DNA from: Cavenderia fasciculata
Taxonomy: Eukaryota; Evosea; Eumycetozoa; Acytosteliales; Cavenderiaceae
Length of the DNA stretch: 64,000 nucleotides
Direction of reading: 5' to 3'
Assembly (NCBI RefSeq): GCF_000203815.1
Contig: NW_004457737.1
Coordinates: 1,488,001 to 1,552,000, forward strand
Position numbers and translations under genes: made by a program. Position 1 is the stretch's first letter, and the number at the start of each line of letters is the position of its first letter. Under the pieces are notes generated by a model that worked only from the letters and a program-made list of their open reading frames with translations, made no database searches and had not been told where the DNA came from. Positions 55,493-62,219 of the stretch are shown here, in pieces.

Positions 55493-57302
55493 TTATTGAG
55501 TATTGATGATCAATCTTTCATTTTCATATTGTTGGTTAGAAGAAGAGGAAGAGGAGAAAATTGATTTGATACGTTTGGCTATTCGGTTAGAGTTTTCAAC
55601 TCCAAGAGCCAAATAAATAATAAATGAAAAATAGAAAAGGAATCCAATGATCATGACGGCAATCATCCAGCCAGATGTTGAAATTTGTGTTGCAAAAATG
55701 ACAATTAAATAGATATTGATGGCGATAATAATTAATGATAAAAGTCTAACTACAATATTATTTAACCAATGATTTTTAAACTTTTCTCCCATTACTTCAG
55801 ATCCTAAAATAATAATAGAGAATTGATTGATTTTTGGTTAGTTATTATTTTAAAGACTTTTGATTTTTATATATTGATACATACTAGAGGTAAAATAAAG
55901 TACTGGTAATACAGCAAATGGAAGTTGAACAGATTGGAGTACATTTAACCATTCATCTAGAGAGTCGAGATGAGTGTTTGAGAGAATGGCAACGACAATG
56001 GCAGGAACGATGGCACTGCATCGAGTGATCAATAGTCTCTTCCAAGGCTTGATCTTTAGATCTAAAAACCCTTCCATGACAAACTGACCAGAGTAGGTTC
56101 CAGTCATGGTCGAGCATTGGCCTGCAGCCAAGAGACCGATGGCCCAAATGTATCTTGCAACCTCTCCATACTTGGTGCCGAGGAAATCGGCGGCGGTAGA
56201 GAGACCAATAGTCTCGCCGAGAAAGCCAGTGCCAAAGACAGCAACCACAAAAAGATTGATGACAAATGAGATGAACAGAGCAATACTCGACTCGATGTTA
56301 AAGTATTTGTTGGCTGTGCGAACTTGGATGTCGCTCGATCGGTCGATCTTTCTCGACTGTACCAATGCAGAGTGAAGGTAGATGTTGTGTGGCATGACGA
56401 CGGCACCGAGGATACCCACCGCTTCCGCGAGGTTCGAGTGGTTGACGTACGGCTCGACTACGCCACGCAACACTTGTAGTTGATCGGGTTTAGCAATGAT
56501 ATATTCTACACCAAAGCTGACGGCCATGACCGTGATGAGTGCACAAAAGAATGCCTCTAGTTTTCGGATGCCATAGTTTTCGAGTAGTAAAAAGGTGAAT
56601 GTGTCGGCGGCGGTAATCAAGACACCAGCCCACAATGGAATAGCGCCTCGTGACAGAATGCTAATTGCAATGGCAGTGCCGATAACCTCTTGAATGTCAG
56701 AGCCAATGATGGCCAACTCGGTCATGATCCACAGTAATATTCTGGGTACCACTGGATAGTACTCTCTACAATGCACGGCCAAATGCTTGCCCGTTACAAC
56801 ACCCAGCCTGCTGGCAAGAAATTGTAGCCACAAACCAATGACGGTCGACCACAACAACACCCACAACAACGAATACCCACCCGTTGCGCCAGCCTGAATA
56901 TCACTCTCCAAATTACCAGGATCCAAATACGCTATACTCATCAAGAAACCAGGTCCTGTAAATGACCATAACTTTCGAAAACTAAATATTTCCTAAGGAA
57001 AAGAAAGAAAGGTTCACATTATAATTGAATAATAATAATAATAAATGGATAGTTAAACACGATCATGATTCAATAATAAAGAGTGTGATTATATATCTTT
57101 TGTCTTTTTTTTGGATACATACATCTTCTGGTATATCATCCATACCGGGGACTTCGACCAATGGGTCTCTTTGTTTGTCGCTTGTATAAACATTTTCTAT
57201 GAGTATGCCATTATCGTCGGCGGCTAGACTATTTCTCCTACTATCGTTATTATTATTAGTTGGCATTGTATCATATGCTGTTTGTTCAGTTCTAGGTGCC
57301 AT
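55493..57302 (-). CDS. nramp1: Nramp (Slc11) divalent metal-ion/proton transporter
   Basis: Three exons (57302-57123, 56992-55885, 55803-55493) give 532 aa. A polar N-terminus precedes a multi-pass membrane protein with all Slc11 hallmarks: [15 protein letters not shown] with the metal-coordinating D-P-G-N in TM1, the MPHN motif in TM6 ([19 protein letters not shown]), and the loop signature [19 protein letters not shown]. The family exports Fe2+/Mn2+ from acidic compartments with protons. In Dictyostelium, Nramp1 sits in phagosomes and macropinosomes and limits intracellular bacteria; this prototypical sequence fits it better than the contractile-vacuole NrampB. The length is normal for the family. 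Confidence 0.95.
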
Positions 57303-58897: not shown

Positions 58898-60173
58898 ATG
58901 GAAGATATATTCAAAGGAATAGTGTATGTAACCAGTTTCAGTTTATTTAGAATTATCAATTGTGTTATTGACTGACCAATCTCCTATCGATCTATCTATC
59001 TATCTTCACTAGTGATGATGAAAGAGCTGGTTTGGTTATATCAAACTTGTTATTACTCAATGACTTTTTAGATTCGGTCAACATTGAAATTAATGAAAAG
59101 GGTTGGTCTTTAACTGGATTTGATCGTATGTGTTTTAGTGATGACTTTGTTGGTCATATCATATATATAGTTATCTAACATGTTCATTTGTGTTTATAAA
59201 AGCATCACAAGTACTTTATATTGATGTTAGATTAGAGAGATCAATGTTTACCGATTATCATATGTTTGTATATTAGAAAATTAGAAAAAAAGAAAACCAA
59301 AGATTCAGACTGACAAGTTGATGGAAAATTATCATTTTTAATCTAGTTTGAAACCAGTATTGTTTGTTTTAAAAGTAGATATGATTCACAAGGTTTTAAA
59401 AAAGGTTGGAAAAGTTGAAAAAATTGCTTTCAAGTATCCAGGTGATAAATTAGAATTGGTATTTATAAACAACAATCCACACCACGTTCATTTTACGTAA
59501 TACTAACAATTGTTGTTATTATTATTAGATTATATTTAATCCATCTGGTTTTATTACACATCATTCTTTTCCAGAAATGATTTTACAATCTCCTGGTAAT
59601 TATTATTATTATTATTATTATATGATCCAACTTAAATTAATATTATTATTTCCTTTTTAAAAAGATCAATACAAGGATCCAGATTTTAAATATGAATGTG
59701 GTAAATATTAATTGTTGATTCAACAGACTAACCCTTACCCAATACATCCTTTTTACTTCTATCTATCTATCTATCAATTTTTTTTTAAATAATAGAAATA
59801 CTTTTACCATGTATATTATTTAAAAATATTATAGGTGAATTAAAATCATTTGGTGATAATAGATTATGGTTAAAAGTTGATGAAAATAGTTTATGTTTTG
59901 AAGCCAATGATAGTATTGTAAAATCAAGTATGACTTTGCATAAAAATGTATGTCGATTTATGATATCCAAATATATAGATTATTCATTAATTACCTATAT
60001 ATATATAACCAATCCCTAAAGAGAACCAAGGAGCTTCAAATCATTAGTAAATCCAAGTTTGAAATTGAATTAAGGAATAATTATTTCCTCAAGATTGGAA
60101 ATGTATTGAAAAAGTTTAGTTCCAAAGAATGCCTTTTACAAATAGGCCCAAAAAGCCCTTTCACTTTTATGTA

Positions 60174-60215
<42 letters not shown>

Positions 60216-60319
60216 CTTTATGTCTATCTATCTTGTTTTGTGACAATCTAATGTGTTTTTGTTAAAGCATCAGTCTCCAATCTAGTTGCTTTCAATTCTT
60301 TCTTGCTCCATTATTATAG
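58898..60319 (+). CDS. Divergent PCNA-like sliding clamp, nine exons
   Basis: Exons: 58898-58923, 59013-59125, 59203-59263, 59347-59458, 59529-59595, 59665-59700, 59796-59947, 60022-60170 and 60268-60319. All join in frame to 255 aa, versus 258-261 for PCNA. Compared by eye with human PCNA the match runs end to end: FDPSQVLYIDVRLERSMF (45-62) against the M-D-S-S-H-V strand; IHKVLKKVG (80-88) with lysines matching channel Lys77/Lys80; a linker-like ILQSPDQYKDPDF; YECEILLPCILF (136-147) opening the second domain; and FFLAP (249-253) at the same numbering as PCNA Y-Y-L-A-P. Identity is very low, so it is not the replicative clamp. The Lys164 modification site is not conserved. Rad1, Hus1 and Rad9 are alternatives, but length and end signature favour PCNA. 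Donor 3 is GTTTGT; the others are canonical. Confidence 0.8.
60176..60215. repeat. (ATT)n microsatellite in intron 8 of the PCNA-like gene
   Basis: About 13 uninterrupted ATT units, starting directly after the GTATGT donor, parallel to the ATT tract that opens the ankyrin-type gene's first intron. Confidence 0.95.
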
Positions 60320-60463: not shown

Positions 60464-60711
60464 TTACTTTTTGACAGCATGTTTAGCAATACATTGTTTA
60501 AACTTTTGAAATTCTATATTACAAGCATTCTTTTCAATATCATCAATATGTTTAATAACACATGATGCATACAATGCTGACTAAGAGATGATGTGTCAAA
60601 GGTTAGAAAAAGTTGACATTCTATTTTAACTAATAATATATATACCTCTGCAGTACATTGACTTAATGATTGTGCTACTCTTTGAGACCACTTTGTAGTA
60701 TTACTTGACAT
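60464..60711 (-). CDS. Twin-CX9C mitochondrial protein, NDUFAF8-like
   Basis: Two exons, 60711-60646 and 60580-60464, encode 60 aa. Splicing at GTATAT...CTTAG creates the first CX9C motif across the junction (CTAE|SALYASC), and the second lies in exon 2 (CNIEFQKFKQC). The N-terminal helix TTKWSQRVAQSLSQ and the basic end (AKHAVKK) match the plan of human NDUFAF8 (74 aa: W..RV, CX9C, CX9C, AAAAKK), a complex I assembly factor that stabilises NDUFAF5. Import by the Mia40 relay into the intermembrane space is expected for twin CX9C proteins. The start at 60711 is chosen because it begins at the same point as the family. An upstream in-frame extension exists without an ATG. The gene converges with the PCNA-like gene, 144 bp between stops. 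Confidence 0.75.
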
Positions 60712-61006: not shown

Positions 61007-62219
61007 TTAATATGTATCTGGTTGAGAAATGATTGATTGATAAGGTAAATTTTCATATTCATCTTCATAACTCCAGAATATTTTCCTAAATATTCTGTAT
61101 TTCTTGTAGTTGTTTCGTAGTTTTGAACTTCTAAAATAAAAGATGGCATTGAAGAAACCTTGCAATACAAATAGTCCACGGGCAATGATGGTCAAAACCT
61201 CAACACCATAGTCTGGAGGAGGTGGTGTACGATAGTGCTCCTCGCTAATCTTGTAACGAGTAAAGATAAAGATGTGTAGCACCAAAAGCATCATGTAGCA
61301 AATCGACAAGACACCCGGATAAAACATTAATCTCCAAACAATCTTTTTGGTGGTATTTCTCTTTTCATCGTTATTCATTAAGGATTTGGTTTCATAGTAT
61401 GGTCTTAAAGTACCATTGTATGCTTGTTTCAATGTAACCATTTGTACAACCAAATTAAATAACATAATTGATCCAAAAAATAATGCATCAATTATAAATT
61501 TTACTTCATCATTTTGATTAACATATCTACATCTAAACAACAAAAATAATTAATTAATTAACCAAATAATAATAATAAAAATATAATGTATTATTATTAA
61601 TATTATTTATACATACTCATTCCCATCATCACCAAGATGAGTTCTAGTTAATATTATGATTAAAATGGAAATACCCCAAATAAATACATGGAATAATTTA
61701 TCATTCTTTTTAATATCTTTGGCAGGATAGAAACATAAAAATAATAAACTATAATTAATTAATTAATTAATATATTAAGTTAGTTATCCATCCATTCAAT
61801 TAAATAGTTGATCATTTCAAAACATACTTTATAGAGATGGCAACTGACCAAAGAAAATTGGAAACTATACTAAGTTGAGTTAAAGCAGCTTGTGCAAAAC
61901 ATAAATAAGTATTTCCTAAGAGCAAATAGAATAGTTAGTATAAAACAAATAATATATAATGTTACAATGTTGTTTTTGTTAAATTGTGTGACATACTGAT
62001 TATATACAATCCTACGACTTCTGGTGATAGGAATAATGGAAAAGTTACAAAATTAAACAAAAGAATAGAAAATGTTGGATAGATAATGATTCTTGAATAA
62101 CTATTTCTTAAGAGCGTTATCCAAAAGAAATGGAATATGATAAATATACATCCTATGATCGATAGTATATAGCACACTAATTCGAATATCTTTGCTGTAA
62201 GTACATTATCTGATGTCAT
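61007..62219 (-). CDS. cAMP-receptor-like (CAR/CRL family) seven-TM receptor
   Basis: Four exons (62219-61997, 61915-61828, 61748-61617, 61532-61007) give 322 aa with seven hydrophobic segments: two in exon 1, the third in exon 2, the fourth in exon 3 and three in exon 4. The layout and the final segment (ARGLFVLQGFFNAIFYF followed by a basic helix) fit the Dictyostelium cAMP receptor / CRL family rather than the Grl or Frizzled-like families. The cytoplasmic tail is short (about 35 residues) and lacks the long Ser-rich tail of CAR1, so a CRL-type orphan receptor is more likely. The ligand cannot be inferred. Confidence 0.85.

Follow-up and report, generated by a model that had tools for sequence, protein, structure and literature searches.

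A candidate gene for a divergent second PCNA-family clamp in the genome of Cavenderia fasciculata

To our knowledge, nuclear DNA in most well-studied eukaryotes has been described as being served by a single kind of replicative clamp together with the 9-1-1 clamp. Vertebrates have paralogues of 9-1-1 subunits, namely RAD9B and HUS1B. The 9-1-1 clamp itself, composed of Rad9, Rad1 and Hus1, is described as acting in damage signalling (PMC9690074). An extra PCNA besides the replicative one is found in the apicomplexan P. falciparum, whose PCNA2 has been linked to the DNA-damage response (PMC10927090) and, according to a paper citing another study on this point (PMC4759932), accumulates on DNA damage. 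In a study of Dictyostelium discoideum, pcna, rad9 and hus1 are listed among the RblA-repressed genes, a finding that has no bearing on a further clamp (PMC3386910). By searching the literature on Dictyostelium and PCNA, we found no second dictyostelid PCNA in titles and abstract openings, most subscription papers being outside the scope of this search. De novo transcriptomes have been published for this species under the name D. fasciculatum (PMC5282741).

The window analyzed here is a stretch of 64,000 nucleotides (bases 1488001-1552000 of contig C1) from the 31.0-Mb genome of Cavenderia fasciculata, which is distributed over 21 contigs. On its plus strand, a whole gene, from start to stop codon, was rebuilt from the DNA at positions 58898-60319. 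Profile matches and a spliced-profile search support it, and it very likely encodes a second, divergent sliding clamp of the PCNA family. Eukaryotic PCNA (TIGR00590; PF00705 and PF02747) and the predicted protein have in common the two-domain homology (residues 24-253), the length of 255 residues, L-A-P at residues 251-253 and the residues corresponding to human D41, V45, P234, K77 and K80. The candidate differs in being only 18-20% identical, in lacking Lys164 and the helix-1 lysines, in its predicted pI of 6.5 and in scoring below the TIGR00590 cut-off. With archaeal clamps, including the crenarchaeal PCNA2 and PCNA3, it shares a DPSxV motif and its best single-sequence scores, but it has nine exons, is located in a eukaryotic genome, scores below the archaeal cut-offs and shares only 21-26% identity with the two Sulfolobus clamps, over 160-161 residues. 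P. falciparum PCNA2 resembles it, by description, in being an extra PCNA alongside the replicative one, but is apicomplexan. The 9-1-1 clamp belongs to the same superfamily, but the candidate has no significant match to the Rad1, Hus1 and Rad9 sequences compared.

Gene structure and coding signal

A sequence-only reading of the window had proposed that nine short exons splice in frame into 255 residues, and the model could be rebuilt as such: the splice product is 768 nt long with no stop before its end, and all eight introns are of the GT..AG type, with lengths of 69-97 bp. GC content is 28% in the exons vs 23% in the introns. Exon 1 (58898-58923, donor GTATGT), which forms the start of domain 1, stands among 16 possible 5' choices that keep the frame within the stretch tried, and one of two alignments placed it against the MFEARL start of PCNA. 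Exon 2 (59013-59125), whose donor end was recovered by the spliced search, covers the helix alpha-1 region and the first strands. Both the spliced search and the alignment point to exon 3 (59203-59263) with the DPSQV..ID strand and F--Y, exon 4 (59347-59458) with a lysine-rich segment that includes K82 and K85, exon 5 (59529-59595) with the segment aligned to the subunit-interface strand beta-I1, exon 6 (59665-59700) and exon 7 (59796-59947), which carries E168. The sequence-only reading had also listed an interdomain-linker-like stretch and the start of the second domain, and these are located in exon 6, which is aligned to the interdomain connecting loop, and in exon 7, respectively. Exon 8 (60022-60170), with its acceptor end recovered by the spliced search and its content by alignment, belongs to domain 2. 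Exon 9 (60268-60319), encoding the C-terminal FQFFLAPLL followed by the stop codon, was compared with 3' alternatives. It came out on top among 169 rows (the model itself being present twice), 2.3 bits ahead of its own variant with the acceptor 6 bases further on and 2.7 bits ahead of the best 3' end without exon 9, and its gain was 7.9 bits vs no exon 9 and 5.8 bits vs read-through. Exons 1 and 9 are less certain than the others.

A codon model trained on 16 long open reading frames in the window gave the proposed frame -0.06 bits per codon, vs -0.92 and -1.42 for the other two frames, while the joined introns scored -0.84 to -0.99. The proposed frame was favored in eight of the nine exons, narrowly so in exon 1, the exception being exon 9. 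Synonymous codon choice, with -38 bits for 248 codons, is unlike that of the long training frames, which counts against the proposed gene. The probability of 254 stop-free codons is about 3e-10 at the local base composition, without correction for the exons having been selected because they are open.

The locus was furthermore searched with a splice-aware profile aligner, in which GT/AG is the only splice rule and no splice consensus is used, and with a profile built from nine PCNAs, the candidate being left out. When the whole window was searched on both strands, the candidate locus came out on top with a score of 51.4, followed by 33.9 for the next. With a lower intron cost, the candidate locus scored 74.2 bits, which was reached by none of 200 Markov shuffles (maximum 21.3), none of 200 profiles with permuted columns run against the same DNA (maximum 29.6) and none of 116 other 2-kb stretches of the window (58 half-overlapping positions on both strands; maximum 59.2). 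With a higher intron cost the score was 59.9, and all three control counts were zero again. The best path (59020-59125, 59203-59263, 59347-59458, 59529-59595, 59665-59700, 59796-59947 and 60022-60180) recovered exons 2-8 unaided with 12 out of 14 ends exact; the path deviates only at its open local ends, starting inside exon 2 and running on for 10 bases beyond exon 8. A raw score from one region should not be set against that from another, because stretches richer in GC reach 70.6 and 68.7 even with permuted profiles. Expressed as z against 60 permuted profiles each, the candidate locus reached 22.5 and the six best other stretches -0.1 to 1.4.

These results bear on whether the locus could be a pseudogene in decay or a set of exons joined by chance. 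The terminal exons are weakly supported, as would be expected under such a reading, but the frame is open across all nine exons and, together with the three control counts of zero and the unaided recovery of exons 2-8, this makes it highly improbable. Chance joining of exons is rejected on the basis of the controls and the recovered ends.

An extra calibration was made because the Hus1 locus (L006) of the same genome showed two unrelated peaks, with scores of 43.6 and 49.8. The peak on its plus strand (z of -0.2 and -0.1 at the two intron costs) was reached by 30 and 28 of the 60 permuted profiles, which marks it as compositional. Another peak near position 665 on the minus strand, beside the Hus1 gene, scored 49.8 with the PCNA profile (z of 3.0 and 1.6), was reached by 0 and 2 out of 60 permuted profiles, and is probably also a matter of composition. 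The true Hus1 gene gave z of 6.6 and 4.2 with the PCNA profile at the two intron costs, and the profile therefore also senses the wider clamp superfamily.

Upstream of the candidate gene, on the minus strand, is an NRAMP metal transporter gene (55850-57302; Pfam E-value 5.8e-113 for the frame 55850-56944), the only one among five neighboring proteins scanned with a Pfam match over cut-off. Downstream, also on the minus strand, a two-exon gene (60464-60711) encodes a 60-residue protein of twin-cysteine, CHCH/Cx9C-like appearance (Pfam UPF0203 0.0015 and CX9C 0.0083, both below cut-off), presumably resembling the complex I assembly factor NDUFAF8. It is followed by an apparently multi-exon membrane protein gene on the minus strand (61007-62219), with a weak match, below cut-off, to the slime-mould cAMP-receptor family Dicty_CAR (0.0025) in the frame 61962-62219 and no Pfam match in the frame 61007-61543.

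Family placement and the other clamp genes

The sequence-only reading had the protein tracking PCNA over its length, and the PCNA models indeed match residues 24-253. Over this span, the NCBIfam archaeal clamp model gave 64.1 bits (1.4e-17), below the model cut-off, and the eukaryotic model TIGR00590 (pcna) 59.7 bits (2.9e-16), below the equivalog cut-off of 99.1 bits, while the PCNA proper of the same genome scored 362.2 bits with the latter. The candidate is below the cut-offs of all five archaeal clamp models. Among Pfam domains, PCNA_N was matched above cut-off (8.9e-7), and PCNA_C (0.0066; 17.1 of 23 bits), Rad9 (0.003; 17.5 of 25 bits) and DNA_pol3_beta (0.0075) below it. The scan, whose HMMER filters discard the majority of matches with E-values over about 0.1, returned no row for Rad1 or Hus1 and no over-cut-off match to PF02144, PF04005 or PF04139. 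In a PDB sequence search, the best 60 of 92 rows were all PCNAs or archaeal clamps by name. A PHROGs search yielded a single weak row (0.071), and PADLOC had no match.

The same picture was obtained from pairwise and profile comparisons. In a direct comparison with a small reference set, in which several chains are incomplete, all nine PCNAs scored 23.1-43.0 bits and all five Rad1, Hus1 and Rad9 sequences 3.6 bits or less. Aligned with hhalign to four eukaryotic PCNAs, the candidate obtained a probability of 95.2 (E 2.5e-8, columns 23-254), vs 0.3 for each of the two 9-1-1 families compared, Hus1 and Rad1. Homology to both PCNA domains is accordingly found in the NCBIfam, PCNA_N and hhalign results, and a closer likeness to PCNA than to Rad1, Hus1 and Rad9 in the direct comparison and with hhalign. 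A placement in the Rad1, Hus1 or Rad9 family had been named beforehand as the outcome that would overturn the proposal; the profile searches went the opposite way. Judged by its sequence, the candidate is thus a member of the PCNA family rather than of the 9-1-1 group.

An alternative identity, as a divergent subunit of the 9-1-1 clamp or as a paralogue of such a subunit, is hinted at by the below-cut-off Rad9 match and by a 15-row tree that sets it beside Hus1 with support of 26/27. This join was flagged as long branches meeting, however, and the tree was not used as evidence. With Pfam, the direct and the profile comparisons all favoring PCNA, and with Rad1, Hus1 and Rad9 each found elsewhere in the genome, a 9-1-1 identity is largely refuted and we consider it very improbable.

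An ordinary PCNA gene is found on contig C17 (2.9e-47 in a six-frame search), its spliced protein being 56% identical to human PCNA. Rad1, Hus1 and Rad9 genes are located on contigs C2, C21 and C14, and their proteins, spliced or partly spliced, matched the respective Pfam models with E-values of 5.3e-38, 1.1e-44 and 3.6e-18; the Rad9 fragment gave no PDB match up to E 1. Since all four genes are separate and located elsewhere, the candidate is, on sequence grounds, taken to be the fifth clamp-type gene of the genome. When its protein was searched against the 31.0 Mb at E-values up to 10, a search that could miss divergent or finely split copies, all seven matches fell in its own locus and no further copy was found. 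A stretch on contig C3 (L005) matching the Rad1 model at E 0.007, below cut-off, was read in three frames, appeared to be of low complexity by eye and was set aside. As to clamp loaders, the RFC1 model had one match and the Rad17 model four (three on contig C5 and one on C14), with loader stretches at C5:3607764-3609409, C5:2273239-2273829 and C14:3274043-3274225.

Conserved residues, divergence and origin

Residues were mapped to human PCNA by means of two alignments, and we take the human residues used for this to have the roles usually given to them. Several of the features proposed from sequence alone were recovered, i.e. the D-x-S-x-V strand (D46-V50) and L-A-P at residues 251-253, which align to human L251-A252-P253. 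The paired channel lysines were recovered in part: K82 and K85 correspond to human K77 and K80, and the same segment holds the further lysines K86, K89 and K92, as read from the sequence, but human K13, K14, K20 and R149 are replaced by I, S, N and G, respectively. The Lys164 site, already described as not kept, is occupied by E168 in both alignments, which sets the candidate apart from replicative PCNAs in this respect. Identical to human are, among 30 positions listed, D41, V45, Q125, P129, Y133, P234, L251, A252 and P253, while human M40, L47, L126 and Y250 are replaced by the aromatic residues F, Y, Y and F, and I128 of the PIP loop by D131. With 32 K+R and 33 D+E the protein is near neutral, its pI comparing with 4.1-4.9 for nine PCNAs, some of them incomplete. 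The segments aligned to strands beta-I1 and beta-D2 differ from the PCNA of the same genome at most positions. Conserved core residues at an overall identity of 20% suggest purifying selection. This pattern fits a clamp that is outside the control of ubiquitin and SUMO at Lys164, yet may have retained the docking of partners at its C-terminal pocket. Conversely, it may be unable to slide on DNA or to bind PIP boxes of the ordinary kind, given the change of I128 to D131, the loss of the helix-1 lysines and R149, and the pI of 6.5.

The protein was rightly called highly divergent: identity is 18-20% to four eukaryotic PCNAs, 19-26% to five archaeal clamps and 20% to the PCNA of its own genome, while the latter is much closer to human PCNA (see above). 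The highest scores among the nine PCNAs were those of Sulfolobus tokodaii (43.0 bits), Thermococcus (40.8) and S. solfataricus PCNA2 (40.5). A tree of ten sequences grouped the candidate with the two Sulfolobus clamps (support 81/99, not starred), on a branch of 3.28 and with its amino-acid make-up flagged as unlike that of the other clamps. In the same set, with the long branch and odd composition just mentioned, a sister position to the PCNA of its own genome was rejected (AU p 0.0165), and the gene is, as far as its sequence tells, probably not a recent duplicate of that PCNA. A sister relationship to the four eukaryotic PCNAs together (p 0.369), or to yeast PCNA alone (p 0.094), was not rejected. 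A published PCNA tree was judged too weak for conclusions by its own authors (PMC12198294).

The gene might have been acquired horizontally, the donor being an archaeon or giant virus, and split by introns later; this would be compatible with any of the functional readings below. In its favor, the five archaeal clamps outscore the four eukaryotic PCNAs in the direct comparison (34.7-43.0 vs 23.1-30.4 bits), FDPSQVLYID in exon 3 resembles archaeal MDPSRVVLID, the eukaryotic PCNAs compared having MDxxHV or VDDSRV, and the sister position to the genome's own PCNA is rejected. The family models hardly separate archaeal from eukaryotic (64.1 vs 59.7 bits), however, and neither grouping with eukaryotic PCNAs was rejected. 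Viral contigs were scanned for near-exact short peptides, an approach that does not exclude giant-virus clamps: the candidate had no pattern match, while the eukaryotic PCNA alignment had 44 and the PCNA of the genome 3, no relative being among them, and the phage search likewise gave none. A scan of genome contigs yielded 87 pattern matches with a single relative, a woesearchaeal clamp (L016). All in all, we hold such a transfer to be quite unlikely.

Possible roles of the predicted clamp

Taken as a whole, the data are best explained, with somewhat better than even confidence, by a divergent second PCNA-family clamp with a narrower task. Its product would most likely fold as two PCNA domains and form a three-subunit ring around DNA, which would be loaded by RFC or an RFC-like loader and would tether PIP-box partners via the kept C-terminal pocket of L-A-P, P234 and V45-D41. 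Since the clamp has lost the Lys164 site and the channel lysines of helix 1, and an ordinary PCNA is retained in the genome, it probably operates outside bulk replication and Rad18-type ubiquitin signalling. That it encircles DNA in a more specialised role, for instance in repair or recombination synthesis, is a tentative proposal that we place a little short of an even chance. Our best guess is a specialised repair clamp, in analogy to P. falciparum PCNA2.

Other arrangements could be imagined from the same features. The candidate may join one or two PCNA subunits, or 9-1-1 subunits, in a mixed heterotrimeric ring, as in the crenarchaeal PCNA1/2/3 and as described for the PCNA of S. solfataricus (PMC9690074). 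The top score being that of a crenarchaeal clamp and the beta-I1 and beta-D2 segments being so unlike those of the genome's own PCNA are consistent with this, but the archaeal likeness may be a retained ancestral state or a long-branch effect, and the tree support of 81/99 was not starred; we regard a mixed ring as unlikely. It is rather improbable that the fold has been kept while the encircling of DNA has been lost, so that the protein would bind PIP proteins away from DNA, in the manner of a decoy or scaffold. Such a role would fit the loss of the helix-1 channel lysines and R149, the near-neutral charge and the partly kept PIP pocket, but not the retention of K77/K80 and the further lysines in the same segment. 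Similarly doubtful is an old separate lineage, neither replicative PCNA nor 9-1-1, which would still be active in this amoebozoan as a nuclear DNA clamp of a third kind, free of Lys164 control and with a set of partners to itself. Such a lineage could predate the divergence of the known eukaryotic PCNAs, or could have been acquired from an archaeon or giant virus.

Returning to the preferred reading of a second PCNA-family clamp with a narrower task, CRISPR editing has been reported for diverse dictyostelids (PMC13046832), and the task of the candidate should therefore be directly testable. What the genome appears to hold is a further PCNA-type gene, about equally far from eukaryotic and archaeal clamps, alongside the full usual set. 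If the reading is true, this would be a ring clamp freed from replication and from Lys164 control, and turned to another use.
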